DNA of 60,752 nucleotides from an uncultured Lachnospiraceae bacterium (GTDB lineage: Bacteria; Bacillota; Clostridia; Lachnospirales; Lachnospiraceae). A model generated the notes under the pieces. The model saw only the letters and a program-made list of their open reading frames with translations. It was not told the origin of the DNA and did no database searches. The position numbers and the translations under genes were made by a program. Within the stretch, counting starts at the first letter, position 1; each line of letters opens with the position of its first letter. The stretch covers positions 1 to 60,752 of the forward strand of contig CANQPJ010000011.1 of the NCBI GenBank assembly GCA_947625755.1. The letters run 5' to 3'. Below are positions 15,570 to 60,652 of this stretch, piece after piece.

Positions 15570-15619
15570 TATATAACAACCTCCTGAATATATATTTTCA
15601 TGCTTTTCCATATATGAAT

Positions 15620-15669: not shown

Positions 15670-16275
15670 TTATTTTTTTATTTTAATTCTTTTTACTCCG
15701 GACCATCGACCATAATACTTTGTTCCATTAACCATTCTGACCGCTCTCGCCCTCACATAAAGTTTTTTCCTGTTCTTTATTTTTTTATCGGAAATTTTTG
15801 TATTTATTTTTCTTACTGTCCGCCGGATTAATATTTTTTTGAATTTTTTATTTTTGGCAACCTGTACCTGATACTTTTTTACGCCCTTTATCCTTTTCAG
15901 TTTTAAAGATATTTTTGCAGACCCCTTTTTTCTTACTACCTTTTTTACTCTTGTCTTTCCTACCTTAACTCCTTTTGTGGTTTGAAGAGGGGTACTAGTG
16001 GTAGTAATATCTGAATCCGTACCAGAGGTCATCTTATCTGTGGCAACAATACCTGTAGTTATCTTCTGTTCTGTATCTGTAGTTATCTTCTGTTCTATAT
16101 CTGTAGTGGCTGTTTCACCGGAAGGTGGCTGAACAGATGTTGTAGATGTTGCCGGTGTATGTGACTGCTGCCATGGATTCGGGCACACATCACCATCACT
16201 ATCCTGACTGGCGGCTACCGAAATTGTAATTCCCAATATAAATACTGTAAATAAAATTACACAACATTTTCTCAT
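15670..16275 (-). CDS. Small secreted protein made almost only of the lysine-rich Fn3-like tail
   Basis: 201 aa from MRKCC (GAAGGTG upstream). Signal peptide about 1-24, then a Thr/Ser/Gln-rich linker with repeats such as TTDIEQKITTDTEQKITT (about 45-95), then the basic domain of about 95 residues to the end. No catalytic or other binding domain is visible. The tail shows VKKYQVQV, KKLYVRARA and YYGRWSGVKRIKIKK, which align with the C-terminal ends of the CotH, 1317-aa and GH81 proteins. It may be a free wall-binding module, a competitor for anchoring sites, or the remnant of a larger protein. The 74-bp repeat array lies directly upstream. Confidence 0.8.
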   Translation of the reverse strand: MRKCCVILFTVFILGITISVAASQDSDGDVCPNPWQQSHTPATSTTSVQPPSGETATTDIEQKITTDTEQKITTGIVATDKMTSGTDSDITTTSTPLQTTKGVKVGKTRVKKVVRKKGSAKISLKLKRIKGVKKYQVQVAKNKKFKKILIRRTVRKINTKISDKKIKNRKKLYVRARAVRMVNGTKYYGRWSGVKRIKIKK

Positions 16276-16383
16276 ATATAACACCTTCAATTCAAACACT
16301 ATTCTTATTTAAGATTTTATCATTTACAAATAAAATAAGCAAGCACGAAAAATCTATGGAAATTTCATGGTGGGCGGAATGCA

Positions 16384-17090
16384 TTACATATGTTTCTTGC
16401 AAAACAAGACAAATATATATGTAAATTCTTGGGGAATCCATGATGAGCGAGAATGCATTACATATAACTTTTATAAAACAAGACAAATATATATGTAAAT
16501 TCTTGAAATATCCATGATGGGTGAGTATCAATTACATATATTGTTTGCAAAACAAGACAAGTCTATATGTAAACTCTCGGGAAAATTCCTAACTGGGAGA
16601 AGCAATTACATATATTTCTTGCAAAACAAGCCAGATATATATGTAAATTCTTGGAAAATTCCTAACTGGGGAGAACCAATTACATATATTTCTTGCGAAA
16701 CAAGACAAGTCTATATGTAAACTCTCGAGAAAATTCCTAACTGGGAGAAGCAATTACATATATTTCTTGCGAAACAAGCCAGATATATATGTAAATTCTT
16801 GAAATATCCATGATGGATAGGAATCAATTACATATATCCTTTACAAAACAAGACAAATATATATGTAAATTCTTGAAATATCCATGATGGGTGAGAATGC
16901 ATTACATATATTTCTTGCAAAACAAGCCAGATATATATGTAAATTCCTGGAAAATTCCTAACTGGAGAGAACCAATTACATATATCCTTTACAAAACAAG
17001 ACAAGTATATATGTAAATTTTGGGCAAATCCATAACAACTTAACATATATTACATATCTATATCAAAATATAAAATGCTAATATATGTAA
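16384..17090. repeat. Array of ten 41-nt hairpins at exact 74-bp period
   Basis: Units start at 16384, 16458, 16532, 16606, 16680, 16754, 16828, 16902, 16976 and 17050, always 74 bp apart. Each is TTACATAT, 25 nt, ATATGTAA (41 nt in total), with small changes in some arms; many have an inner CTTG/CAAG pair. The 33-nt linkers come in two sequence types (with CCATGATGG or with ATTCCTAACTGGG) of the same length. 74 is not a multiple of three, so open frames across it are accidental. The array fills the space between the 1317-aa gene's terminator and the tail-only gene. The last unit is followed by ATTATAAATAT-GCAGGA, also found at 53293. Confidence 0.97.
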
Positions 17091-17162
17091 ATTATAAATA
17101 TAGCAGGAGAATAGAGTTTACAAAAGACTATTCAGAATAATTATCCAATAAATATAGAAAAA

Positions 17163-17198
17163 CAGAACCTACATCCGAATTAACGGATGCAGGTTCTG
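17163..17198 (-). terminator. Terminator after the 1317-aa gene (AGAACCTGCATCCG type)
   Basis: CAGAACCTACATCCG (17163-17177) and CGGATGCAGGTTCTG (17184-17198). In the minus-strand RNA the single difference is a G-U pair; on the plus strand it would be an A-C mismatch, so the hairpin is kept in the gene's sense. CTGTTTTTC follows. The same hairpin occurs at 48801 and 53365. Confidence 0.85.
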
Positions 17199-17252: not shown

Positions 17253-20200
17253 TTATTTCTTTTTAATTTTAATTTTTTTCGGTTTTGACCATTTTTTAGC
17301 TCCAACCGCTCTTACTCTTACATACAGTTTCTTCTTATTTCTGAACTTCTTGTTTGTAACAGTTACTTTTATCTTCTTAACTGTTTTTCTAACAAGAATC
17401 TTCTTGAATTTCTTCTTTGTAGAGAACTGTACTTTGTACTTCTTCGCACCTTTTACTCTCTTGAAAGTAATCTTAACCTTCTTGGAGCCCTTCTTCATAT
17501 ATGCTTTTCTTACTTTTGTCTTCTTCAGGGCTTTCTTTGTCGTTGGTTTTGGTGTTGCCTTTGGTGTTGTAGTTTCAGGACCTACACTTGGCTTATCTGA
17601 CTGCTGTGGTGTTGTTACTCCACCGGCATCTGGTGTTTCAGACGGAGTCTGTGGATCAACATCACTTGGTGTCTGTGATTCTGGTGTCTCAGATGGAGTT
17701 TCTGGATTAACTGTTGTAGGATATACTACATTTCCTTCTTCATCTGTTACTTTCAGATTACCAAAATCTAATACTGTATCTACAGCAGTAAATGTTAAGT
17801 CAAATGTAACTGTTGCAGTTCCTTCTGCAGTTGCTTTTACTTCTATGGTCTCTGTTGCTCTCTCGCCAGCACCCAGAACTTTTGTCTCGCCTGAATTATA
17901 GAGATACTTACCATCAACGCCGGATGAATATATATCCCAAGTGAAATTATATGTTGCATCAGGTGTTAATCCTGTAACAACTTTCTGAAGCTGTAATCCC
18001 CAGTAATTCCAATTACTACATGTATCATGACGTACTGCAATGTGGTCAGGATCTTCCGGATCGATTGCAGCAGATGCTGTACCGCTCCATGTTCCTTCAT
18101 ATACATTATAACCACCTACAGTGTACCAACCTGTATCTAAACCTTCTGCAGCAGGATAAGTTGCAACACCTGTCAATCCCTCTGTAGGAAGTGGCTGAAG
18201 TTGTGAATCAGATTCAGGTTCTGTTTCAGATTCTGTTTCTGATGTAGAACCTTTGTCTTCAATATTAACTGTTAATGTCTGACCTTCTGTTTCCTTGCCA
18301 TTAAGTACTGCTGTAATCTTGATTGTGTGCTCGCCCGGTGTTTCAAACTTATATGTAAGAGTTTGTGGTTCAATACCAGTCCAATCCGGCTGTAACACGC
18401 CATCAATATATACATTATATACCTGTCCTAATTCCATCTGTTCCGGACTCTGCTGCCATGTAAATGTAACAGTATCACCATCCTGTGACTGAACGGATGC
18501 GCCGGTTACTTCGATTGGCTCTTTAGGAAGTTCAGCTTTTGCAAATACTGCCATCTCATATACGCTTGTGCCATATGAGTTTGCATTTACGCTAAATTCT
18601 GTTACTACAACTTTAACATACTGTGCTTCCACCTCTTCAAAGTTTACTTCCGAAATTAAATTTTCTGCACTTGCTGTTCCGGATGCAACTGGTGCGTCGC
18701 CATATTGCTCATCTGCTCCTGCTACATATACATCAAATTTTGCTGCAAAAGAAGCCTCAAACGAGATGAGTACCTGACCAATTGTCTTAACTTCGCCAAG
18801 GTTGACACCAAAGTATTCCTGACCTACAGCATGATCTTCTCCTGCTGGTGATGCCTGCCATCTTGATGTCAGATTTCCATCTACAATATTCTTTGCATCA
18901 TTTCCTGAACTTACAAAAGCTGTTTTATTCTTTGCATAGTTGTCTTCAGATGTGAATTTGGCTGCTAATTGAGCTGATGCCGCTTCTTCCGGTGTCAATT
19001 CAGGAATTTGAATTTCTTTAATTCCTCTTGCAATTAATTGACCGCCCTCATCATATGCTACAACAATAAGCTTCTGTGTGGTTCCCGGTTCGCCGGCAAT
19101 ATGGTCTACACTTTTTGCGTCTCTCTTTTCAAATTTCCATCCATTGTGATATGCTGTTGCAATATGTTCTTCATCTTCTACATCAATATATGAAGTATAA
19201 TTTTTTGCACCTTCTACTTCTTCCCAATGAACTTCATAATATTTCTTATTTTCATTTTTATCATAAGAGAATGTAGGTTCATTAATTGTTATCTCTTTAT
19301 CTGCCGGAAGAGTTGTAGCTGTCTCTGTTGGATCCGGCTCGGAAATATCAAACTGAACATCTGATACTGTAATTGTATATGGTGCTGAAATCTCTCCATC
19401 ATCAGCATTTTTACCTAATGGCATATAAATCTTAACTGTATCTGCTTTTGCAGTAAACTTATATGTAAAAGTAGCACCTTCCGGTGTTGCAGTAACATTT
19501 CTGTTAATTGCTGCTCCATTTGTAAATTCAATCGGAACTACTTTATTTTCTGTTGACTGAATCTTTAAGGTCAATGTGTATGTCTGTCCGTTTTCTACTG
19601 CTATATTCTCTAACAGTGCGCCATAATTATACTGTTCTGCATCTGCCGGAATATTTTCTACTTTAAATCCATATCCATTATACTCTGAAGGCTCTAAACC
19701 TGATGTATCTGCTGTCTGAAGTGACCACTTATATCCTGAAAGTGCAACATCACCTTTTTCCTCCGGTTCAGGTTCTGCTACATCTTCTTCAAATTCAGCA
19801 GTGAAGTTAAAGTTTGTATCAGCTTCTATTCCGTCAAGACCTAAGACAATCGTTGGAGCAGTTACGTTAGAAGTATAAGGAATAGTAATCTCATGCGTTC
19901 CCTCTTCTAAAGTTACGCTATTATCCTGCCCATTAATCTGGAAGTTAAACTGTCCTGCTTTATCCGTTGTATAATTAATCTTAATATTATACTTCTGGTC
20001 AGGTGCTTTTAATTTCAAAAGCTCTGCTGCACCATCAATCTTTGCCTGAAGCTGCCATGTCTGCTTATTATTTGCTGATACTTTTGCATCAAAGGTAATC
20101 TTTGTTCCTTCTACAGTACCTTTGTACTTCATTGCATTTGCATCGCTTCCTGCAAAGGCTGACCAAGGAGTAGTATCCGTCCACACTGAACTCTGTGTAG

Positions 20201-21206
20201 AATAATACCCTTCTTCATCTGCTGTAGCAGGTGTCGTTGTAGTCGGTGAAGTCGGATTATCATTTTCCGTATATGTAATACTATTAATTGTAATTTTAGT
20301 ATTATCCTTAACTTCTGAAAACTCGAATATAATCTGAGCACCCTGTGCACTCGCCTTGAATTTACCTGTAGCAACGTTAGGACCTGCAGTATATGAATTT
20401 CCGGTCAGTACAGAGTTGGATTTTTCTTCTTTTGTGTTTAATTTTCCTGCTTCTCCTTCAACAGTATAATCAACTTTATACTCGTAATCTTTTCCTTCTG
20501 TCAATTGTTTCAGAGGAGATTTCACCTGAATTCCCCACAATATATTTGAGGATTTTTCAACATCAATTACGATAGAAGATTCTGTTGCTTCAGAAAAATA
20601 TAATTTTCCTTTTTGTCCACCGGCTCCTCCTACATAGAAGTCCCACTGTTCATCAGGTTTTTCTGAAGACTGTAGATGTGTTTCGCCCAAGCTCTCACCA
20701 TCTACTATCACTCTGCCCTGCTCATCCATAGGAAGTGTAGTTGTTTCCTGTTGTGTAGTTGATGGTGTTACAATTTCACCAGCGGTTCCATCTGCATAGT
20801 AAACATAACATGTATATGTTCCCATTGCATCTGTTACAGTAAATTCTGTTTCCTGTGCAGTAAATGCGTCAAGGTGAATTGCAATACCTCCACCCTGCAA
20901 ATCATAATTTTCCTCTCCTAAAGAGCTGGTTGTTATGGCTGCCGGGAAAGTCACATAAATACTATCCGCCGTTGCAAATCCCGGTCTCTGGATATTAACC
21001 GGACTAACTCTGCCATCTTCACAGTAAAATTTATACTTGTTTGTATAGGTTCCGCCACCGGCACCATCGCCCAAGAAATCAACACCACTCCATTCTGGTG
21101 CTGCTGCTTTTACTGCAGTGTCATTGTAAAACGTCAATGAACTTACAACCATTGCGACTGCACATACAACCGCTAATACTTTTTTCATTGTTTTACTAAG
21201 TTTCAT
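17253..21206 (-). CDS. Large secreted multidomain carbohydrate-binding-type surface protein with lysine-rich tail
   Basis: 1317 aa; AAAGGAG precedes the ATG. Signal peptide 1-34. Four beta-rich segments resembling CBM4/9-like modules lie at about 165-320, 335-480, 490-640 and 1010-1150. Fn3-like segments are at about 650-745 and 900-985, and an F5/8C domain is at about 750-890 (NIVDGNLTSRWQAS, YFGVNLGEV). A Pro/Thr/Ser linker (1155-1220, repeats of TPSETP) and the lysine-rich domain (1222-1317) end the protein. No glycosidase or other catalytic motif is seen. Likely job: holding polysaccharide at the cell surface. Its promoter closely resembles that of the transport operon, linking it to beta-glucan use. 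CBM family calls are tentative. Confidence 0.8.
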   Translation of the reverse strand: MKLSKTMKKVLAVVCAVAMVVSSLTFYNDTAVKAAAPEWSGVDFLGDGAGGGTYTNKYKFYCEDGRVSPVNIQRPGFATADSIYVTFPAAITTSSLGEENYDLQGGGIAIHLDAFTAQETEFTVTDAMGTYTCYVYYADGTAGEIVTPSTTQQETTTLPMDEQGRVIVDGESLGETHLQSSEKPDEQWDFYVGGAGGQKGKLYFSEATESSIVIDVEKSSNILWGIQVKSPLKQLTEGKDYEYKVDYTVEGEAGKLNTKEEKSNSVLTGNSYTAGPNVATGKFKASAQGAQIIFEFSEVKDNTKITINSITYTENDNPTSPTTTTPATADEEGYYSTQSSVWTDTTPWSAFAGSDANAMKYKGTVEGTKITFDAKVSANNKQTWQLQAKIDGAAELLKLKAPDQKYNIKINYTTDKAGQFNFQINGQDNSVTLEEGTHEITIPYTSNVTAPTIVLGLDGIEADTNFNFTAEFEEDVAEPEPEEKGDVALSGYKWSLQTADTSGLEPSEYNGYGFKVENIPADAEQYNYGALLENIAVENGQTYTLTLKIQSTENKVVPIEFTNGAAINRNVTATPEGATFTYKFTAKADTVKIYMPLGKNADDGEISAPYTITVSDVQFDISEPDPTETATTLPADKEITINEPTFSYDKNENKKYYEVHWEEVEGAKNYTSYIDVEDEEHIATAYHNGWKFEKRDAKSVDHIAGEPGTTQKLIVVAYDEGGQLIARGIKEIQIPELTPEEAASAQLAAKFTSEDNYAKNKTAFVSSGNDAKNIVDGNLTSRWQASPAGEDHAVGQEYFGVNLGEVKTIGQVLISFEASFAAKFDVYVAGADEQYGDAPVASGTASAENLISEVNFEEVEAQYVKVVVTEFSVNANSYGTSVYEMAVFAKAELPKEPIEVTGASVQSQDGDTVTFTWQQSPEQMELGQVYNVYIDGVLQPDWTGIEPQTLTYKFETPGEHTIKITAVLNGKETEGQTLTVNIEDKGSTSETESETEPESDSQLQPLPTEGLTGVATYPAAEGLDTGWYTVGGYNVYEGTWSGTASAAIDPEDPDHIAVRHDTCSNWNYWGLQLQKVVTGLTPDATYNFTWDIYSSGVDGKYLYNSGETKVLGAGERATETIEVKATAEGTATVTFDLTFTAVDTVLDFGNLKVTDEEGNVVYPTTVNPETPSETPESQTPSDVDPQTPSETPDAGGVTTPQQSDKPSVGPETTTPKATPKPTTKKALKKTKVRKAYMKKGSKKVKITFKRVKGAKKYKVQFSTKKKFKKILVRKTVKKIKVTVTNKKFRNKKKLYVRVRAVGAKKWSKPKKIKIKKK

Positions 21207-25167: not shown

Positions 25168-25504
25168 TTACATATATGAACTTGTATTTGTTCATTATCC
25201 CTATGTAACATATTTTCATTTTTCATGTACCTTTTGGATTGTTACATGTATGTTTTTCATTTCTTCTAAAATAGATATGTAATTCTTTCTCGTTCTCCAT
25301 GTATTTTGGGGATTGTTACATATACATTTTTCATTTCTTCAAGAATAGATATGTAATTCTTTCTCATTCTCCATGTATTTTCCGGATTGTTACATATACA
25401 TTTTTCATTTCTCCATGGATAGATATGTAATTGTTTCTCGTTCTCCATACTTTTCGGGGATTGTTACATATACATTTTTCATTTTTCCACGAATAGATAT
25501 GTAA
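25168..25504. repeat. Array of five 41-nt hairpins at exact 74-bp period
   Basis: Units start at 25168, 25242, 25316, 25390 and 25464 and each ends 40 nt later. Arms are TTACATAT/ATATGTAA with small changes (TTACATGT in unit 2, CTATGTAA in unit 1). The inner part differs from the 16.4-kb array (CATTTTTCATTTCT...), but hairpin length, period and the linker end GAGAA(N)CAA (minus strand) are the same. It fills the gap between the end of the PD-(D/E)XK gene and the promoter of the GH94 operon. Confidence 0.96.
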
Positions 25505-25517
25505 TTCTTATTTTGTA

Positions 25518-26339
25518 TTAACACATCAAGTATTTTTCAATGATTTCATCAACAAGTTTAAAATCCAAGACACATTTCTCCGTTTCATATGTGCTAATCA
25601 ACTTATCTCCCGGATATATACCGCTTTTTATATATTGATTAATCTTTTTTACTGATTTCTCACAATAATCTTTATCACTCATTAATCCAAAATGTTCCCA
25701 ATAATACTCTTTTCTCGTATATTTATTAAGCAGAACAAAATCCGGACGTATATAACCGAACCCTTTTAACATTAACGGACATTCATATACATAGGGTATT
25801 TCCATTCCATAAAATTTATCTGCTAGTATTTTCTCTGACTTTGAGCGAACAAGCTCGCCCTTTTCTGTCCAAACTCCCTGCTCTTCAGTTAGTACATACC
25901 TGTCTGTTATAAACTTTGACAAACTATCTTTTTCTTTAAGCTTATTATCTTCCCATTGTTTCGCATATAACTTCATCGGCGCAATGTAGGGTTCGACATA
26001 TATCCGCTTTGCATCCGGCATATTTTCATATATTTGTTCAATTTTCTCCGGACTGTATAAATTTAAAAAATGTTCAATATTTTTTATTTGTTCACCTATT
26101 TTGGGCAAGCTTTTCTTTACATATTCTTTTTGCAAAATTTCCTTTACAAGATTTCTGTCTTTCTTTTTTATATAGCATCCATGGGCGCTGGTTTCCTTTG
26201 TCTTCCGATAATATTGATATGTATTATGATTTTTAATTACAACGATTGTCCCTTCCGGTGCCGACTCAATCTGTGCAAGCCCACTTTTTTCCCATTCTTT
26301 CAAAATTTTCAATTCCTTTTCCAGTATTTCCTTAATCAA
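25518..26339 (-). CDS. PD-(D/E)XK nuclease-like protein of unknown function, flanked by repeat arrays
   Basis: 273 aa. The start is TTG with GAGAGGTG five nt upstream. N-terminal half (1-135) is Lys/Glu-rich and helical. The C-terminal half looks like a restriction-endonuclease fold: LVRSKSEKILADKFY (helix with glutamate), YVYECPLML, YIRPDFVLLN with the aspartate, then YYWEHFGLMSDKDYCEKS, where Glu-x-His stands in the E-x-K position, and YPGDKLISTYE. Related proteins are common as hypothetical proteins in gut Firmicutes, to my knowledge without a known role. It is the only gene between two blocks of 74-bp hairpin repeats, which suggests, without proof, that repeats and protein are functionally linked. 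It also interrupts the glucan locus between the two phosphorylase genes. No signal peptide. Confidence 0.65.
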   Translation of the reverse strand: MIKEILEKELKILKEWEKSGLAQIESAPEGTIVVIKNHNTYQYYRKTKETSAHGCYIKKKDRNLVKEILQKEYVKKSLPKIGEQIKNIEHFLNLYSPEKIEQIYENMPDAKRIYVEPYIAPMKLYAKQWEDNKLKEKDSLSKFITDRYVLTEEQGVWTEKGELVRSKSEKILADKFYGMEIPYVYECPLMLKGFGYIRPDFVLLNKYTRKEYYWEHFGLMSDKDYCEKSVKKINQYIKSGIYPGDKLISTYETEKCVLDFKLVDEIIEKYLMC

Positions 26340-26586
26340 TTACACCTCTCATTTCCTATACCAATGTATATTTTGCACTTTGCGTTAATTTAATATGTAT
26401 TAAACTACATATTTTATGAGATATTATGTGTAATCTGTAAATTTTTTATTAACTGTTTTATCTTTGGTAAATTAAGAGGTCAGCACTACATTGTAAAATA
26501 ATATTCTATGGTAGAAGTATGAATCGGTGAAATATAAATTAATCATTGAAGCATTTATATGTAAACTTGCCCGCATGATTAAACTT

Positions 26587-26690
26587 TTACATATGACATT
26601 TTTTGCATGATTGAACCTTTACATATAACTTTCCTGCATGATTGAATCTTTACATGTAAATTTCCCCGCACGATTGAATTTTTACATATA
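26587..26690. repeat. Single-site repeat: four TTTACATATA boxes at 32-bp period
   Basis: TTACAT boxes start at 26587, 26619, 26650 and 26682 (32, 31, 32 bp apart), separated by a conserved GCATGATTGAA-type segment. A TATATGTAAA box at about 26566 precedes them. The spacing equals the distance between the two arms of the 41-nt hairpins (32 bp, three helical turns). Bases 26340-26560 hold only AT-rich sequence and presumably the promoter of the nuclease-like gene. Confidence 0.85.
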
Positions 26691-26756
26691 AATTTCTATT
26701 TACTTACATTGATTTATATGTAATTTTTTCTTGTCGGATAACTCTATTCTTCTTTT

Positions 26757-26871
26757 TTACATATAACATCTCTTTAATAATGGAAATGTATATGTAAAAA
26801 TTTGGCAAATGCGTTGTGCAGGGTGAAAAATTACATATATTTTTGCTTTAATACTGTTGCTTTATATGTAA
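26757..26871. repeat. Two 41-nt hairpins 74 bp apart
   Basis: Units 26757-26797 and 26831-26871 have the same 41-nt length and 74-bp offset as the other arrays. The second unit's right arm TATATGTAA continues into the 27-bp repeat block. Confidence 0.9.
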
Positions 26872-27006
26872 CAAGCCACGACGATGCTTTATATGCAAGA
26901 AATCCTAGTGTCGGTTTATATGTAACAAGCCTCAGCGCTGCTCTATATGCAAGAAATCCTAGTGTTGCTTTATATGTAACAAGCCCCGGCACTGCACTAT
27001 ATGCAA
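26863..27006. repeat. 27/54-bp repeat alternating TATATGTAA and TATATGCAA
   Basis: TATATGTAACAAGCC boxes end their GTAA at 26871, 26925 and 26979 (54 bp apart). TATATGCAAGAA boxes lie exactly 27 bp after each (26898, 26952, 27006). Linkers are similar but not identical. The last half-unit runs into the terminator at 27009, and the segment AGAAATCCTAGTG of earlier units corresponds to AGAAGTCCCGGCAC in the terminator arm. Confidence 0.9.
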
Positions 27007-27008
27007 GA

Positions 27009-27038
27009 AGTCCCGGCACACATCTGTGTGCCGGGACT
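27009..27038 (-). terminator. Terminator at the end of the 11-gene glucan operon
   Basis: AGTCCCGGCACAC (27009-27021) and GTGTGCCGGGACT (27026-27038), perfect 13-bp stem with a four-base loop, 24 nt after the phosphorylase stop. The minus-strand tail is only moderately T-rich. Confidence 0.8.
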
Positions 27039-48301: not shown

Positions 48302-48763
48302 ATGATTTACAACACACCATTGATAGCCCTTGGATGGCTTTCCATTACGCTTATTGTCATTGCAGTTGTACTTTTAGCAGCTGTCATTGTACTATATTTC
48401 GTAGGTAAAAAAGCAGAAAAAAAACAGTCTGAACAACAGCATATTATGGAGGAAAATTCCCAGCTGATCAGCTTATATGTTCTGGACAAAAAGAAGTTAC
48501 GTTTAAAAGACGCCGGTCTGCCAAGTATTGTAATGGAGCAGGCGCCAAAATATGCCAGACGGGCAAAACTGCCAATTGTAAAAGTCAAAGCCGGTCCTAA
48601 AGTTATGAATCTGATTGCCGATGCAAAAGTTTATGAGACCATTCTTCCAAAACAGGAAGTAAAAGCAAAGGTCAGCGGTATTTATATCACGTCTTTTCGG
48701 AGAATCCGTGGTCCGGTATATGAGCCTAAGAAAAAGAAAAAACTTTTTGGAAGAAATAAATAG
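48302..48763 (+). CDS. Small membrane protein of unknown function
   Basis: 153 aa, ATGGAGG before the start. One N-terminal membrane segment (about 12-35), then a charged coil (KKAEKKQSEQQHIMEENSQ) and a compact Lys-rich beta-type domain ending in PKKKKKLFGRNK. I do not recognise the family. It follows plsC by 77 nt in the same direction and may be co-transcribed. The hairpin and 74-bp array lie directly behind it. Confidence 0.75.
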   Translation: MIYNTPLIALGWLSITLIVIAVVLLAAVIVLYFVGKKAEKKQSEQQHIMEENSQLISLYVLDKKKLRLKDAGLPSIVMEQAPKYARRAKLPIVKVKAGPKVMNLIADAKVYETILPKQEVKAKVSGIYITSFRRIRGPVYEPKKKKKLFGRNK

Positions 48764-48800
48764 TATGAAAAGGAGATATTTTAAAACTCCTTATTAGACA

Positions 48801-48836
48801 GAACCTGCATCCGCTAACGCAGATGCAGGTTCTTTT
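48801..48836 (+). terminator. Terminator of the AGAACCTGCATCCG type
   Basis: GAACCTGCATC (48801-48811) and GATGCAGGTTC (48822-48832), perfect 11 bp, then TTTT. The same hairpin, inverted, stands at 53365 and, in variant form, at 17163. A short second hairpin (AAGGAG/CTCCTT, about 48771-48792) precedes it. Confidence 0.85.
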
Positions 48837-48927
48837 AATTGCTGATTTCCGTGCAAGTCCTAAAATTACATCTTTTAGACTTTTTTAACTGTATTTTGTA
48901 AGCTCTGTTTTCTGCTATATTTATAAT

Positions 48928-49400
48928 TTACATATATTTGTATTTTATAGTTTTATATAAATATGTAATATATTTTTACTTACTAGGGATTTCTCAAAAT
49001 TTTACATATGTGTTTAGCTTGCTTTGTAAAAGATATATGTAATGTATTCTCCCTAGTTGGGAATTTTCCCAGAATTTACATATAGACTTATCTTGTTTTG
49101 TAAACAATATATGTAATTCATTCTCGCCCATCATGAATTCCCAGAAATTTTACATATGTATTTAGCTGGTGTTGCTGAAAATATATGTAATTGATTCTCG
49201 CCCACCATGGATTCCTCAAGAATTTACATATAAACTTGGCTTGTTTGGCAAGAAAAATATGTAATTGATTTCCACCCACCATGGATTCCTCAAGAATTTA
49301 CATATACATTTATCTTGTTTTGCTAACAATATATGTAATTGATTCTCACCCACTATGAATTCCCAAAGAATTTACATGTATTGGCAACTTGGCAAAAACT
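48928..49400. repeat. Array of six full and one broken 41-nt hairpins at 74-bp period
   Basis: Units start at 48928, 49002, 49076, 49150, 49224, 49298 and 49372, all 74 bp apart; the first six are exactly 41 nt. The seventh is cut by TTGGCAACTTGGCAAAAAC, which is also found inverted at 52824-52842. Linkers carry CCCACCATGG or CCCATCATG. Polarity is opposite to the arrays at 16384 and 52883. With the hairpin at 48801 it forms the left copy of an inverted pair around the ABC genes. Bases 48840-48927 hold module sequence shared with 53300-53360. Confidence 0.97.
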
Positions 49401-52882: not shown

Positions 52883-53293
52883 TTACATATATTGTTTAAA
52901 AGACAAGCCAAGTAGATATGTAAAATTTGCGGGAATCCATGGTGGGTGGGAATCAATTACATATATTTTTTGTAATTCAAGCGAAGTCTATATGTAAAAT
53001 TTCTGGAAATCTATAGTGGGTGAGAATCAATTACATATACTTTTTATAATTCAAGCCAAGTATATATGTAAAATTTGTGGGAATCCATGGTGGGTGGGAA
53101 TCAATTACATATTTTTCTTGCCAAACAAGCCAAGTCTATATGTAAATTCTGGGGAAATTCCTAACTAGGGAGAATACATTACATATATCTTTTACAAAAC
53201 AAGCCAGACACATATGTAAAATTTTGAGAAATCCCTAGCAAGTGAAAATATATTACATATTTATATAAAACTATAAAGTAATAATATATGTAA
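52883..53293. repeat. Array of six 41-nt hairpins at exact 74-bp period
   Basis: Units start at 52883, 52957, 53031, 53105, 53179 and 53253, all 74 bp apart and 41 nt long. A damaged seventh right arm (ATGTAA near 52851) precedes them. Linkers carry CCATGGTGGGTGGG. The last, AT-rich unit is followed by ATTATAAATATGGCAGGA, closely matching 17091-17110. The segment GTTTTTGCCAAGTTGCCAA at 52824-52842 marks the inner end. Confidence 0.97.
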
Positions 53294-53364
53294 ATTATAA
53301 ATATGGCAGGAAACAGAGCCTACAAAAGATGTAATTTTAAAACTCGCACGGAAATCAACAAAGA

Positions 53365-53400
53365 CAGAACCTGCATCCGCTAATGCGGATGCAGGTTCTG
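53365..53400 (-). terminator. Terminator after the GH81 gene (AGAACCTGCATCCG type)
   Basis: CAGAACCTGCATCCGC (53365-53380) and GCGGATGCAGGTTCTG (53385-53400), perfect 16-bp stem, four-base loop, then TCTTTGTT on the minus strand. Homology to the 17.2-kb copy continues on the gene side (TTTTTACAG-CCCT) up to near the stop codon. Confidence 0.87.
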
Positions 53401-53428: not shown

Positions 53429-56400
53429 TTATTTTTTTATTCTGACTCTCTTAATTGCTGACCATTTTCCGTTAACTCTCCGGTTTCCATCGAACTTAAA
53501 AGCACGGACTCTTACAAACAATTTTTTCCTGTTCTTTAATTTTTTGGATTTAATTGTTATTTTTGTTTTCTTCGAAATTCTCCGGACAAGAGCCTTTTTG
53601 TTCTTTTTCGCATTTTTTCTGGTCTTGTAAATTACTACCAGATATTTCTTTGCTCCGGTAATCTTCTTTAATCTGATTTTGACTTTCTTGGCAGCTTTTT
53701 TCTTAACTATAATTTTCTTAATTTTGGCTTTACCCGGTGCCTTTACCGATGTTGTAGATTTTGCCTCCGGTGTGGATGTGACAACTTTTTTCGTGGTGGT
53801 CTCCACTGCCTGACCATCTTTTTTCGTGGTGGTCTCTGTTGCCGGATTGTCATTTTCCGTAGTTTTCTGTTCTTTCCTTGTAGTAACATCCTGTGTTACA
53901 ACCGGGCGGTCATCAACATCATCATCCTGATCCGACTCTGTCGGTCTGCTGCCCTCTTTAATGCTGATTTTACCTGTCACGCCCTTTGACTCAATACCGT
54001 TTAATACAGCGGTAACTTTTACTGTATGAGAACCGCCGTCTAATGCAGTATATGTTCTTGTTCCGGCGACTTCCAGATTCATATCCTTAATATCATCATC
54101 AATGTAAATTCTATAAGTTTCGCCATTACTGTTATCGCCTTGGAAGGATACCTGAATTGCTCCATCTGCCGGACTGGATAATGACAATCCGTATGGTTCT
54201 TTCGGCATGAATTTATCTGCCTTACCCATCACTGCAATCTCGCGGAGCTGATACCCGTATCCTGCTGATTTCTTTGTAAAGTGAATTTTCACATACTGGA
54301 CATCTGTCTGGGTATACCGTGTTGTATCTACTTTTACCTCTACCGGCGATGCATAAGCTATATCTTGCACCGCAGCTACTGTCTCATATTGGCTTCCATC
54401 TTTAGAAAATTCAATCGTGAAGTCTTTTGCATAAGTATTCTCATTGTCAAATGCCAGCAATACTTCTTCAATTTCTTCCGCTGCAACACTCTTTCCAAGT
54501 GTAAGGGTGATGGATGCATCTTCTACACCCCATACGGTTTCAACCTTATCGCCATTAATATCACCATCCGTCAGATCCTGTGGGTCCTGACTGCCTTCTA
54601 AAGTGTAGATTTTATCTACCTTTACTTTTGCTCCTTTTGCAAAATTCCTTCCTGTGTCTACATAATCCCTCAAGGAACCGTCATCTACATCTACACTTCT
54701 GGAAATCCCCTCTGAAAGTTTTCCGTCATAGTAAGAAACTGCTTTTACGGTATGCTTTCCAGCGGTTACCTTCATGGTTCCCTTGCCGGCATTAATCAAA
54801 TCTGTTGATTTCACGCCGTCTAAGAAAAGTACATATTTATATCCGTTCTGTCCGGCGCCTGCAATAATTTCATAGTCAATCTGGAATGGATTGGTTGATG
54901 TTACAACAAAGTTTTCCGGATTATCACAGTGTTCGATTTCTACCTCTTTTGCAGACATTTCTGTAGATAAAACAGCTACTTCCCGCATCTGGAATCCATA
55001 GTCTTTGTGTCCTTCCAGTGTGATTTTAATATATCGGGTTGTACTTAATTTGTCAGAGTAGTTTTTCAATGGAATTGTAAACAATCCATTGTCAGAGCCT
55101 TCATAGGTCATCCCCTTAATTGTATCAACATCTACAAAATCAATTCCCGTATCTGATAATGAAATCTTATAATCTCCACAGAATGTAAGAACATTAACAT
55201 ATTTAATTGCTACTGTATCAATTCCATCTGTATTATAGTTTGCACCCAAATCGATTAATACATACTCTGATTTTTGTGAGGCATCTCTGCCGGTGCATAC
55301 AAAATTACCGTCTATGTTTCCATCGGTTAGTACTCCGGTTGTCTGGCTGCCTTCTCCCGAATACATGGAAGAAACGGAAGAGAACTTGCCAAGTGCAAGA
55401 TTGTATTTTGCATCAGTAATCATTTCCTTAATGGTAGCCTGCGGACCGACGGTTACGGTACATGTACCTTTCTTTCCTGCAATTGTTACGGTTATCGTTG
55501 CTGTTCCTTCGCTTTTTGCCGTCAGTGTACCGTTATCGTTAACTGATACAATACCTTCATTATCAGAAGCCCATTTAGCAGTTGTATCATCCGTTGTATC
55601 TGCCGGTGTAATAACTGCTTCTACTGTATCAGATGATTTGTTCTTCATAGTAAGAACGGAAGGTTTAATTTCTACTTTTGTTACATGTTTTGGTTCACTG
55701 ACAGTAACCTTACATGTAGCCTTCCTGCCGCCTGTAACAGTGGCTGTAATGACAGCCTCGCCCTTTGCTTTTCCTGTTACCAAACCATTCTCATTTACTG
55801 ATGCGATACGGTCTGCGCTCGAACTCCATGTTACCTTCTCTGCTGTCAGTGGAGCAAGCTGTACTGTATTTCCAATCGCAATATTAGCAGATTCAAGATT
55901 GAGTCCCAAAGTGCCTTTAATTAAAATGGTTGAAACCGTAACATCTGAAAGAAGCATTTTCTCTCTGTAAGTCACCGCTTTGACCTGTGTAGAGCTGTCT
56001 ACAACAAACGGTTTCGTATATGTTTCTGAATCCTCTGTAGGATCCGTTCCATCTGTGGTGTACTTAATTTCAGCACCTTTTACTGCTGTAGATAAGGTAA
56101 CGGTCTGTGCCTTATCATAAGTACCGGAAGCCGGTGTGATAGTCGGGGCTTTTGCCTGATTTGCACCGTATACTTCAAATTCAAAAATTCTATATCCATA
56201 CTGCGTAGCTCTCTTAACTCCCTGCATTCTCACATATCTGGCTCTTACTGCATCAAATGTGGTAGTAACAGTTCCCACAGCTCCTGATTCTGCTTTTACT
56301 GTGGTCCATGTTGAGCCATCTGTAGAAATCTGTATGTTATACTTGCTGGCAAAGGCTGTTTCCCAGTTGATTTTCACGGTATTAATTGCCTTTGCGCTTC

Positions 56401-59400
56401 CCAAATCTATCTGTATCCACTCATCATTTTCTTCTGCAGCCTGCCATGATGATGTATAGTCTCCATCCACAATAGTATATGCCGTATCCTGTTTAGAACT
56501 TGCCGTGACCTGCTTTCCAAGAGCAAGATTTTCACTGCTTTCGATTGCATCACCATTAATCTCAAAAGCTGCCGAGCCATATGCGGAATCAATATTTCCA
56601 TCCTTAATTGCTATAGCTTTTACAGTACAATTACTGGATACCATAAATCTTCCCGTGTACTCTGTGGAATTTTTTGTAGGAGCTGTTCCATCTGTCGTGT
56701 AATAAATTTTTGCTCCTTCCGTACTACAGTTTAACTCAACAATCTGCGTATCTTCAAAGCGGACGGTACCGGAAGCATTCTCTTTTACTTCACCATCCTG
56801 AAGTCCTATCGAGCGGATAGTTGGCGTGGCTGTCTGTACATAGTTCATTCCGCCTGCCGGATTAATATCAAAGTGAACCAGTGATTTTCCACTTACCTTT
56901 GCTTTTCCTATCACATCACCTGACTTAGGCTCCACGATTGTAACAGTCTTTGTGGCTGTTGTCGGATTCCAAACTTCACCGGTGTATGTATAACCGCTTT
57001 CTTCATCACCCTTCTTATATACGGAACCGGTTAATGTCTGTCCTACAATCACATAGTCATTTGTTCTATATCCTAACTGATCCATTGCAGAAATAAACCA
57101 TAACGTGTTGGCTCTGTCTTCACTTTGCACCTTGTCTGTATTTTTTTCAAATAATTCATAAGCTGCCTTCGGGTCAGTCTGGGAAAGCATTGGCCATGTA
57201 ATATGCTGCCATCCGGTATCCGGTGTCGGATATTCTTCGGCTGTTTTTTGTTCTTTCTCAATATATTCATTAATCTCTTCTTCAGATTTGCCCTGATTGC
57301 GATATTCTTCCACCCGCTTGTTCATATTAATCAGAACTTTTCTTCTGGCATCTTCCGTGTCATTCCAAAGTCCCTGATACATGTTTTTACATTTGTCCTG
57401 ATACATACCATAATTGGTCAGGTATTCTGAAATCGGGAGCCACTGAATGCCATATACATAAATCGGCTGTCCGCCAAAGAATGTACCATAGCTGTAACTT
57501 GCGCCATAAATCTGTCCTGTTCCTTCGAATGGATAGCCTTCAAGCCAGTTATCACCGTCATAATCAAACCAATACTGTTCAATCGCTTCCATCTCCGTGG
57601 TGAACCCGTATGCACCTGCATCAATATACTTCTGATTCTGTGAGGTCTCACCCCATAGATACATTCCTACCCAGCTGAACAATGATTCGCTTGCTGATTC
57701 CTGGTTGTTTCCATCGTCATTATCTGCGTATCCTCCTGCCCATGAATGTCCGGAATACTGGTCAAAAGCTCTGAACTTACAGAACATATTCCCGTCATTT
57801 TCCGGTTCTTCCGGGTCAGCGTAATCCCGTACCAATAGTTCAATCATATCCTTATAATCGTTATAGAAAGTCCTATCATAACTAGCAAGCACAGATGCAC
57901 CAAACATAAAATATCCATAGGTAAAGTGATGGTCACAGATTGCCGCATTGGCACCAAAGGAACTTTCCGGATAATATAATGTACCCCAGTCCTTATTATA
58001 AATCAGATAACACCTGTCACCATCGCCACTGTAGGTGAACCAGTCTACCATAATTTTTTTCAATTTTTTAAGTAATCCGTCACGAATTTCCGCTTCACCA
58101 ATCTGGTCTGCCATCAGAGCGCTGATTGCCAATGGGTGAACTGCTTTTCCCTGCCAGTAAGCATCCGCATTTGGATTGGTGCCTAACTGGTTTAATACAA
58201 CATTTAGATAGTCCTTTGCTTCAGAACTGTCAAACATACTACTGTTTGGTCTTGCAAACGTTGGAAGCAGTCCTGCGAACTGCTGTGTTGTAGTCAGTAC
58301 ATTTGCAAACTTTGCTTTCATTTTTCCCCGGATTGAACCATATACCGCATCCGGATTGTCTGTATCCGTAGAATGTTTCCACTGATGCGGATAAAATGCC
58401 TGCATTGTCACATCACTAAATCCATTTCTTTTTACCTTCGTGGAAACTGTGTATGTTGTATCAATCTTTGATGTTTTTTTATCATAAGTGTACCCAACCT
58501 GGGTATCTGTTACAAATGCGTAACCATGCTGATAATATGTATTTAAGTCTGCCTTTGCAGTCATGGCTCCAAAGGACATATATGCATTATCTTTCGATGA
58601 AAACTCTACCTTTAATGTAGTCTTTGAACCCACCGTAACTGCAGTAAACTTTGTTCCCTCCGGTACGGTTACTGCAAAATATGAACCATCATTTCCGGCT
58701 CTTGTATTTTCTTCATCTACAGACTTAAATCCCAGATGGTCAGTTATAATGCTTTCTCCTGCATTGTTCAAAATTGTATTTCCGTTTCCGTCAAAAATTT
58801 CTTTAATGGAATTTGAGTTAATAAATACAATCTGATTATCTTTGTATTCTGTAAAAATATATGGAGAACCCTTAACAAAAGTGGACTTCATTTTCAGTCC
58901 CTCTTCATCACAGAGTCCTAAATCTACAGAGTAGTCCCCATATCCTTCTACCCTGTCATAACCTGTAGCTGCCAGAAAATTGTCAGGCGCTACATAAAAA
59001 TCTATGGTTTTTTCCGTATAATATCCCACACCAAGGTCTTCTTCTTTTCTCTCGTCCATAAATCCCTGGGACGCCAAAATCACGCCGAGACCTTTCTTGG
59101 AATATACCGCTTTTAGCGGATGGATAACATCCATATTTCCATAGGTTTTAATCATTGCGGATGACCACCAGCTGTTAGAATCAATAGGAACCTTTACCTT
59201 TTCTTCATTTACGAATGTTGGAAGCTTGTTCAGCTCTTTTTTTATTTCCCCGGAAATATAAGAACCCTTTCCATTCGGATTATTAATAATCTGTCTGGTT
59301 GGAAGAGGCGCAATACTCTCATTGGTCTTGCTGTCGCCCTCTTTATATTCGTATACCTCCAGTTCTCTCAATCCAAAGCCGCTTCCATGCTCTACTTTTG

Positions 59401-60652
59401 AATAGGTCAGCACTCTCACATATCTGACATTTGTCTGGTAACAGGTAACATTATCTATAATACCGGTATATCCCCTAAACTGTCTGTGAATGGTCTTCCA
59501 TGTCTTACTGTCACTGGAAACTTCAAAATCATATATTTTACCGGCATCATCATTAAATCTTGCAACAACACGTCCAATCGTATATGCTTTTCCTAAATCT
59601 ACATACAGCCATTGGTCTTCCTCTCCCTGATAGGATGTAAAAGAAGTGTCTGTTTTTCCGTCCACTGCATTTTCCGGTTTAATCTGATTATATGCATCTT
59701 CCGTAATATTACCGGAGGAATCTTTCATCCACCATTCATCTCTTGTTCCGGAACATTTCACCGGCTGATTCAGGGCAAGGTTCGTTCCATAATTTTCCGG
59801 TCTTTTATTCGCTCCGCCGGTTCCCCAAACCTGAAATTCCCATAAAGAGCTGCCATAGTTTGTAGCTCTTTGTGTTGTAATTATTTTTACATACCGCCCT
59901 GTAGTCTTGCTGAGCTCACTGGAGTCAATAGTCTGCTTTAAGGCAGCCTCTGTATCCACCTTGATGCCATTATCTCCGCTGGCGTCCTCTTTGGATTCAA
60001 AAGTAACTTCCCCGCTTCCTACAACAGCATCCGATGTTTTGTTGTAAGCAACTACTTTCAAGGTATGCGTACCCGGTTTCATTCTAATATCACCCCAAGT
60101 CCTGTCACAATGATCAAATCTATAATTATCTCCTGCCGCATAAGCAATCTGATCATCTACCAGAACATCAAAAACCGCATCATCTACACCAGTCCAATTA
60201 ATATTGTATTGATGTTCTCCGGTATCCTCACGGGTACCTATATACTTGTAGGAAACAGCTAAATCTGTATAGCCGCCTACATTTTTTCCTTTCGTATATA
60301 CAGTTGTCCAATTTGTTTCATCATCTGACACCTGTATGTCATAATATTTGGCATAAGCCGCTTCCCAATGTAAATATATGTGATCAATGGTTGCTACTTT
60401 TCCCAAATCTACATACATCCATTCATTCTTATCATCCCCATCTGCCTGCCATCTTGTAGATTCATTTCCATCTACCGCAGCACTTTCATTACTTCCGGAG
60501 CTGACATAAACAGGTCTGTCTAAAGAAAGATTGTATGGTGTATTATCCTCGTCTGCTGCTGTAACAGTAAACAGTTGTGTCTGCGGACAGACAGTAAGTA
60601 CCATTACCAATGCCATAACGAGAGATAATATCTTTTTAATTCCTCTGTTCAT
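53429..60652 (-). CDS. Giant secreted GH81 endo-beta-1,3-glucanase with many accessory domains and a lysine-rich tail
   Basis: 2407 aa, against 700-1200 for common GH81 enzymes; GAGGAGG precedes the ATG. Signal peptide 1-33. F5/8C domain 40-280, split by an inserted Fn3-like segment about 115-220. Second F5/8C 285-430. GH81 about 470-1195, with CDHHFTYGYFMFGASVL near residue 907 (conserved Asp) and NNQESASESLF near 985 (conserved Glu pair). Chitobiase-C-like 1275-1365 and 1500-1575, F5/8C 1370-1500, Big2 1580-1650 and 1655-1740. F5/8C-like 1745-1890 and 1985-2130, Fn3-like 1895-1975 and 2135-2210. Thr/Glu linker with TTKKDGQAVETTTKK, lysine-rich tail 2310-2407. It would attack insoluble beta-1,3-glucan at the surface. 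Domain edges are approximate. Confidence 0.9.
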   Translation of the reverse strand: MNRGIKKILSLVMALVMVLTVCPQTQLFTVTAADEDNTPYNLSLDRPVYVSSGSNESAAVDGNESTRWQADGDDKNEWMYVDLGKVATIDHIYLHWEAAYAKYYDIQVSDDETNWTTVYTKGKNVGGYTDLAVSYKYIGTREDTGEHQYNINWTGVDDAVFDVLVDDQIAYAAGDNYRFDHCDRTWGDIRMKPGTHTLKVVAYNKTSDAVVGSGEVTFESKEDASGDNGIKVDTEAALKQTIDSSELSKTTGRYVKIITTQRATNYGSSLWEFQVWGTGGANKRPENYGTNLALNQPVKCSGTRDEWWMKDSSGNITEDAYNQIKPENAVDGKTDTSFTSYQGEEDQWLYVDLGKAYTIGRVVARFNDDAGKIYDFEVSSDSKTWKTIHRQFRGYTGIIDNVTCYQTNVRYVRVLTYSKVEHGSGFGLRELEVYEYKEGDSKTNESIAPLPTRQIINNPNGKGSYISGEIKKELNKLPTFVNEEKVKVPIDSNSWWSSAMIKTYGNMDVIHPLKAVYSKKGLGVILASQGFMDERKEEDLGVGYYTEKTIDFYVAPDNFLAATGYDRVEGYGDYSVDLGLCDEEGLKMKSTFVKGSPYIFTEYKDNQIVFINSNSIKEIFDGNGNTILNNAGESIITDHLGFKSVDEENTRAGNDGSYFAVTVPEGTKFTAVTVGSKTTLKVEFSSKDNAYMSFGAMTAKADLNTYYQHGYAFVTDTQVGYTYDKKTSKIDTTYTVSTKVKRNGFSDVTMQAFYPHQWKHSTDTDNPDAVYGSIRGKMKAKFANVLTTTQQFAGLLPTFARPNSSMFDSSEAKDYLNVVLNQLGTNPNADAYWQGKAVHPLAISALMADQIGEAEIRDGLLKKLKKIMVDWFTYSGDGDRCYLIYNKDWGTLYYPESSFGANAAICDHHFTYGYFMFGASVLASYDRTFYNDYKDMIELLVRDYADPEEPENDGNMFCKFRAFDQYSGHSWAGGYADNDDGNNQESASESLFSWVGMYLWGETSQNQKYIDAGAYGFTTEMEAIEQYWFDYDGDNWLEGYPFEGTGQIYGASYSYGTFFGGQPIYVYGIQWLPISEYLTNYGMYQDKCKNMYQGLWNDTEDARRKVLINMNKRVEEYRNQGKSEEEINEYIEKEQKTAEEYPTPDTGWQHITWPMLSQTDPKAAYELFEKNTDKVQSEDRANTLWFISAMDQLGYRTNDYVIVGQTLTGSVYKKGDEESGYTYTGEVWNPTTATKTVTIVEPKSGDVIGKAKVSGKSLVHFDINPAGGMNYVQTATPTIRSIGLQDGEVKENASGTVRFEDTQIVELNCSTEGAKIYYTTDGTAPTKNSTEYTGRFMVSSNCTVKAIAIKDGNIDSAYGSAAFEINGDAIESSENLALGKQVTASSKQDTAYTIVDGDYTSSWQAAEENDEWIQIDLGSAKAINTVKINWETAFASKYNIQISTDGSTWTTVKAESGAVGTVTTTFDAVRARYVRMQGVKRATQYGYRIFEFEVYGANQAKAPTITPASGTYDKAQTVTLSTAVKGAEIKYTTDGTDPTEDSETYTKPFVVDSSTQVKAVTYREKMLLSDVTVSTILIKGTLGLNLESANIAIGNTVQLAPLTAEKVTWSSSADRIASVNENGLVTGKAKGEAVITATVTGGRKATCKVTVSEPKHVTKVEIKPSVLTMKNKSSDTVEAVITPADTTDDTTAKWASDNEGIVSVNDNGTLTAKSEGTATITVTIAGKKGTCTVTVGPQATIKEMITDAKYNLALGKFSSVSSMYSGEGSQTTGVLTDGNIDGNFVCTGRDASQKSEYVLIDLGANYNTDGIDTVAIKYVNVLTFCGDYKISLSDTGIDFVDVDTIKGMTYEGSDNGLFTIPLKNYSDKLSTTRYIKITLEGHKDYGFQMREVAVLSTEMSAKEVEIEHCDNPENFVVTSTNPFQIDYEIIAGAGQNGYKYVLFLDGVKSTDLINAGKGTMKVTAGKHTVKAVSYYDGKLSEGISRSVDVDDGSLRDYVDTGRNFAKGAKVKVDKIYTLEGSQDPQDLTDGDINGDKVETVWGVEDASITLTLGKSVAAEEIEEVLLAFDNENTYAKDFTIEFSKDGSQYETVAAVQDIAYASPVEVKVDTTRYTQTDVQYVKIHFTKKSAGYGYQLREIAVMGKADKFMPKEPYGLSLSSPADGAIQVSFQGDNSNGETYRIYIDDDIKDMNLEVAGTRTYTALDGGSHTVKVTAVLNGIESKGVTGKISIKEGSRPTESDQDDDVDDRPVVTQDVTTRKEQKTTENDNPATETTTKKDGQAVETTTKKVVTSTPEAKSTTSVKAPGKAKIKKIIVKKKAAKKVKIRLKKITGAKKYLVVIYKTRKNAKKNKKALVRRISKKTKITIKSKKLKNRKKLFVRVRAFKFDGNRRVNGKWSAIKRVRIKK

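Follow-up and report, generated by a model that had tools for sequence, protein, structure and literature searches.

Phased arrays of inverted DNA boxes and a linked family of nuclease-like genes in Lachnospiraceae and Treponema

The window, that is, the whole 60,752-nt stretch of an uncultured Lachnospiraceae genome analysed here, carries five arrays of paired inverted boxes (TTACATAT and ATATGTAA) at nearly constant distances (Table 1). This locus raises the question of what the arrays serve and what keeps their geometry.

Array geometry in the window and in other genomes

The earlier note on this DNA had counted 29 units, each 41 nt long and with a 74-bp period, at five loci, and our count agreed, with 10 units at 16384, 5 at 25168, 2 at 26757, 6 at 48928 and 6 at 52883. 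Its phrase "no exception in period" was too strong, because 63- and 75-bp steps and a 42-nt unit occur in the array at 26.6-27.0 kb, with same-orientation boxes 54 bp apart as a further break, and its arm distances of 32 and 42 bp became 33 and 41 bp when measured from box to box. Absent from it were the nuclease-like gene between arrays 2 and 3 and the special terminal unit which, together with a leader, closes three of the arrays (17050, 48928 and 53253). One of the five units of array 2 has a one-base change in a box; array 4 lies between convergent genes and is followed by a degenerate unit, and array 5 has a degenerate unit on its left side. Within single arrays, the inner spacers and linkers of adjacent units resemble each other, which does not fit CRISPR, with its near-identical repeats and unrelated spacers.

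Table 1. Positions of the features in the window and loci of the recurrent nuclease-array cassettes
Feature	Position or loci	Strand	Description
Array 1	16384..17090	+	10 units x 41 nt, 74-bp step; special terminal unit 17050-17090
Leader and terminator-like hairpin (17164-17198) of array 1	17091..17198	-	3' end of gene 17253..21206(-)
Array 2	25168..25504	.	5 units, 74-bp step, directly downstream of nuclease gene
Gene for PD-(D/E)XK nuclease-like protein	25518..26339	-	273 aa; TTG start as listed; between arrays 2 and 3
Array 3	26557..27013	.	Upstream of nuclease gene, irregular: 63-, 74- and 75-bp steps, followed by 54-bp box distances
Terminator-like hairpin (48800-48834) and leader of array 4	48800..48927	+	Behind gene 48302..48763(+)
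Array 4	48928..49338	-	6 units, 74-bp step; terminal unit at 48928
Array 5	52883..53293	+	6 units, 74-bp step; terminal unit 53253-53293
Leader and terminator-like hairpin (53366-53399) of array 5	53294..53399	-	3' end of gene 53429..60652(-)
Cassettes behind guaA	L181, L185, L186, L195, L200, L202, L204, L206, L209, L228		
Cassettes behind rpsI	L134, L161, L169, L172, L173, L188		
Cassettes behind rlmD	L166, L167, L170, L174, L175, L187		

Further repeats were observed in the window. At 26856-27013, adjoining the nuclease-flanking array, 54-bp sub-repeats carry single-orientation boxes that alternate with TATATGCAAG, and at the contig edge (1-337) lies a separate 70-bp tandem repeat (4.8 copies, 98% matches) without TTACATAT boxes. 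A similar basic C-terminal domain is common to the large secreted-looking proteins at 12867-15611, 15670-16299, 17253-21206 and 53429-60652; in some relatives (L310, L311, L313), small ORFs that precede rpoB have endings similar to it.

A genome-wide scan of the window genome revealed 209 exact TTACATAT-N20-30-ATATGTAA units, compared with 0 for the backwards-read control pattern. The stretches holding 45 arrays contained 199 exact units (235 if at most one box mismatch was allowed), with unit widths of 40-43 nt and steps of 73-76 bp or, one turn less, 63-64 bp; three long steps (138, 138 and 223) fell at places of missing units. Genome-wide copies were thus regularly spaced, and the random spacing that the earlier note had named as a refutation did not appear. 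In several contigs of the assembly (C5, C20, C29 and C40; L096-L127), an array lies no more than a few hundred bases from the contig end; arrays may therefore be places at which the assembly breaks.

Nor were the arrays restricted to one assembly, the second refutation named there. At least one unit was present in 10 of the 39 relatives searched, with 9-29 units in four (G002, G012, G013, G014) and 1-2 in six, and copy numbers varied widely among related genomes (209, 29, 27, 17, 9, 1, 0). A scan of a species-genome collection for an inverted box pair with a third box behind it returned 61 stretches; several of these were single matches in unrelated bacteria with other spacings, which we take as chance. 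Clear arrays were found in Eubacterium/Agathobacter-type, Butyrivibrio and Pseudobutyrivibrio genomes and in Treponema. In these species the boxes lie 31-34 or 43 bp apart within a unit and mostly 31-32, 41-43 or 52-54 bp apart between units, distance classes that differ by about one helical turn. Spacer sequences differ among these arrays, and at two loci (L071 and L038) the boxes are exact while the spacers diverge.

The nuclease-like gene family and its upstream arrays

The gene between arrays 2 and 3 is single-copy in the window genome. Pfam and NCBIfam gave no model above cut-off in 17 of 17 family members, only scattered weak matches, and a sequence search of the partner protein against solved structures likewise returned weak matches only. 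The active-site residues were invariant in 118 family members, with E215 in 117. The predicted C-terminal fold was nearest to I-Bth0305I, Bax1, TnsA and Vsr, and a Foldseek search with the protein model gave no match with E below 0.001. By predicted fold and active-site residues, the partner family is placed in the PD-(D/E)XK nuclease superfamily, and its members presumably cut DNA. Unlike I-Bth0305I-type (EDxHD/Vsr-like) homing endonucleases, Bax1, TnsA and VRR_NUC, it has a large N-terminal part without a recognised fold: no confident model was obtained for this half, nor was a DNA-binding fold recognised in it. Also unlike I-Bth0305I-type enzymes, no intron or intein context was found in the nuclease flanks read. 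To our knowledge, an upstream phased array such as the one beside this family is not known from homing endonucleases.

The distribution of the family was assessed with a profile built from 17 members, with at most eight candidates scored per genome in the order scan. The gene was present, often in several copies, in 68 of 294 genomes of the order and 35 of 393 genomes of the class; 11 of the 39 relatives carried homologs (27-85% identity, up to six per genome). At three Treponema loci (L071, L038, L055) the TTACATAT arrays adjoin a gene homologous to 25518..26339(-) at 33% identity, and a fourth homologous copy adjoins an array in L091; homologs beside TTACATAT arrays were seen in both Treponema and Eubacterium.

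Among viral contigs, a first scan found the family in 0 of 47 candidate stretches and a second found the nuclease domain alone in 8 of 192. Eight plasmid records matched the C-terminal part, mostly within AAA-ATPase or helicase genes, and two records of the phage collection matched the partner protein. Bases 380-1069 of MT839528.1, an unannotated 4.2-kb faecal "Bacteriophage sp." record, encode a relative that aligns with 89% of the protein at 27.6% identity. Neither partition nor replication genes recurred in the nuclease gene clusters seen. Plasmid partition and iteron arrays of the sopC/parS type are tandem inverted-repeat sites beside the gene of their binding protein; unlike these, the nuclease arrays are chromosomal, occupy many loci per genome and go with a nuclease-like protein.

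Array and gene were linked well beyond the window. Of the first 29 homolog loci, all from relatives, 19 had a tandem array just upstream with its own word and period, one had an array downstream only, and nine had none by the test used. At 118 loci, we looked in the 800 bp upstream for the 8-mer most abundant in both orientations, with the maximum of 40 Markov shuffles as control. The shuffle maximum was exceeded at 79 of the 118, strongly so at 63, while 55 were without a strong upstream array by this test. In 39 of the 63 strong arrays, no more than 100 bp separated the last box from the called start codon. In a paired test on 500 bp, a strong array was found upstream in 28 of 53 loci versus downstream in 2 of 53; window array 2 accounts for one of these two. 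Similarly, a later set from outside the order had a strong upstream array at 15 of 20 loci. Three loci were left out before these counts: L158 (repeats L140), L159 (repeats the window) and L142, a cut gene with a TTACATAT array next to it, which means that one positive is missing from them; L131 and L232, with less than 150 bp upstream, were left out before the 118-locus test.

Box words, helical periods and dispersed arrays

Each gene goes with its own box word. Within genomes, the box 6-mer was common to none of 34 paralog pairs, and across the family word sharing dropped with protein identity, from 12 of 19 pairs at 70% or more to 7 of 52 at 50-70%, 6 of 96 at 40-50%, 17 of 1327 at 30-40% and 4 of 459 below 30%. 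Nuclease-array cassettes recur behind the same three housekeeping genes, guaA, rpsI and rlmD. At rlmD, four strong-array loci with 58-72% identity carry four different words, and at rpsI two such loci with 67% identity carry two, so words appear to change in place. At least three nuclease lineages, only about 30-40% identical, sit at guaA; because they are so divergent, this place seems to have been used repeatedly.

Families with unrelated words had periods near 52-54, 62-65, 71-75, 83-86, 94-95 and 125 bp, with a best-fit grid of 10.35-10.5 bp. For the modal same-orientation step at 59 loci (4 of the 63 strong loci had no such step of 40-135 bp), the Rayleigh R was 0.824 at 10.4-10.5 bp with phase near zero, and fell to 0.754 at 11 bp and 0.379 at 9 bp; p-values for this grid are rough, because related loci are not independent. 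The safer figures are the word-family count and the later set. With one value for each of 33 word families (4 of 37 had no usable step), R was 0.818 at 10.5 bp and best at 10.35, whereas 2000 uniform draws under the same scan reached at most 0.551. The later set gave 14 values (42, 50-54, 63-64, 73-74, 86 and 125; 1 of 15 strong loci had no usable step) with R 0.815 at 10.5 bp. Steps within loci including skipped boxes gave R 0.79 over 40 values, a figure inflated by box-skipping steps; with skipped boxes taken out, the 16 off-modal steps gave R 0.66, and 14 of 16 were within 2 bp of a multiple of 10.5. A small control of 13 unrelated tandem repeats from the fetched stretches showed no grid (R 0.164). 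These results support an array geometry that follows the DNA helix and is kept in place of spacer sequence, as the earlier note had proposed.

Arrays of the cognate word were also found far from the nuclease in all three nuclease-bearing genomes examined (the window genome G000, G020 and G269), the latter two having been picked, in a non-random choice, for their clear words. In G020 (word ATTACGTG), 18 of 25 exact units lay away from the nuclease locus at nearly constant 71-bp steps, and in G269 (word ATTACTAG) 14 of 21 did so at nearly constant 52-bp steps; each genome had one array between divergent genes. G000 has many dispersed copies with a common hairpin, the special terminal unit and a leader that reaches about 110 bp at most, the hairpin lying on the side of the flanking gene's 3' end. 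This terminator-like hairpin (AGAACCTGCATCCGC stem) recurs at many G000 arrays with compensatory stem changes, and one copy (L108) has a wholly different stem.

We classified the genes flanking 44 arrays with a mechanical ORF caller, nuclease-flanking arrays excluded and one array flagged inside a called ORF: 15 pairs were convergent, 24 codirectional and one called divergent, and four had one side unknown. The one called divergent is the rplL-rpoB array, which is really codirectional, the plus-strand ORF being antisense. This array was missing at that place in 19 of 19 relatives with a readable region upstream of rpoB (12 of these 19 stretches yielded no rplL, and one further relative was unparsable).

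Candidate explanations

We consider it reasonably probable that the nuclease-like protein has these cognate, helix-phased arrays as its duplex-DNA sites. Because of the word-gene pairing and the helical grid, duplex-DNA binding is the best-supported step of this proposed mechanism: with inverted 8-10 bp boxes at whole-turn spacing, copies of the protein encoded by 25518..26339 and its relatives could sit in a row along one side of the helix and bind jointly. The array at the nuclease's own locus probably represses its promoter and would so keep the nuclease in check. Array copies, in G000 mostly with terminator hairpin and leader, may have spread between genes, mostly to the 3' ends of genes; they would be non-autonomous elements with a present or former dependence on the nuclease, whose cutting and subsequent repair would spread or maintain them. 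Whether this amounts to a new class of genome system, in which PD-(D/E)XK families, each with its own palindromic word, assemble on one face of phased promoter arrays and propagate them as several insulated pairs per genome, we put forward tentatively, as plausible but short of probable.

The nearest parallel is REP/REPIN with RAYT. As described in PMC3116915 and PMC8049555, dispersed intergenic palindromic repeats are tied there to a gene flanked by those repeats, with several families per genome, and REPINs occur in E. coli genomes without RAYT (PMC8049555). Palindromic intergenic repeats that are both dispersed and at the enzyme gene were likewise confirmed in G000, G020 and G269, and nuclease arrays persist in some genomes without a detected enzyme, as is described for REPINs. 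Unlike REP repeats, ours are tandem arrays of inverted boxes on 10.5-bp helical steps, and the nuclease families are often multi-copy and recur at few places. None of 17 members had a Pfam or NCBIfam match to the RAYT (Y1/HUH tyrosine) transposase at E up to 1, and the C-terminal model is PD-(D/E)XK-like.

The chromosome organiser or silencer proposed in the earlier note stays a rival, in our estimate an unlikely one. Dispersed arrays would then serve nucleoid architecture, insulation behind terminators or transcription control through a phased binder, nuclease-like or another protein, that does not act by cutting. Up to 209 units of strict geometry in one genome and the placement of arrays mostly at gene 3' ends suit such a role. 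So do G014 and G002, which, like the genome of L078, have TTACATAT arrays and gave no nuclease match; G014 is 98% complete, and arrays can therefore outlive the gene or do not need it. Against an organiser stand the invariant nuclease residues, the wide differences in copy number between related genomes and the rplL-rpoB array absent from its place in every readable relative.

That the protein is a defence or toxin-like nuclease, kept inactive by its own arrays as decoys and then set free or directed against invaders, appears distinctly improbable. The C-terminal ~110-115 residues of the partner protein match the end of the PADLOC candidate PDC-S68 (E 1.4e-24) and are homologous to it; the match covers profile positions 1101-1218 of 1221, the last tenth only, and the full length of ~1200 aa that would mark a PDC-S68 member is lacking. 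Several mutually distinct pairs per genome and the cassettes behind the three housekeeping genes would also fit defence, but no conserved defence partner gene was found within 2.5 kb of nuclease loci, and the dispersed arrays exceed the needs of a simple decoy.

That the units act as hairpin RNA, the ladder suggested in the earlier note, is very doubtful. Hairpins could form from the palindromic units, the array adjoins a nuclease-like gene, and a precedent exists in the stem-loop arrays of TIGR-Tas, where, as in our arrays, palindromic units lie beside the gene for a DNA-targeting protein (PMC12045711). Unlike TIGR-Tas, the nuclease arrays show DNA-helix spacing, and the 10.5-bp grid, with its lower R at 11 bp, speaks against an RNA role because free RNA gives no reason for such steps. 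A Nop domain was absent from 17 of 17 members (Pfam scan, E up to 1), the box C and D words (TGATGA and CTGA) occurred in at least half of the units in only 2 of 58 arrays (4 of 58 with TGATG), and the window gave 0 Rfam matches at the gathering threshold. The helical part of the earlier interpretation thus stands, and the RNA ladder found no positive support. Neutral tandem duplication, with the regular period as a memory of recent copying, agrees with units of one array often being near-copies, but is scarcely credible given exact boxes beside diverged spacers, families of different words on one grid that unrelated tandem repeats do not follow, and the strong placement upstream of one gene family.

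The pairs of nuclease and cognate array appear to form a widespread family undescribed within the open-access literature searched, where no title describing the array layout was found. If the proposed duplex-DNA reading is true, they would be a widespread, unnamed protein-DNA recognition system of gut Clostridia and rumen and gut Treponema. Dozens of box words, each with one protein, would provide a natural library for how proteins read DNA and how words change, and a possible source of orthogonal DNA-binding parts. They would also offer an independent case of the question posed by REP/RAYT, why bacteria keep an enzyme together with scattered repeats.
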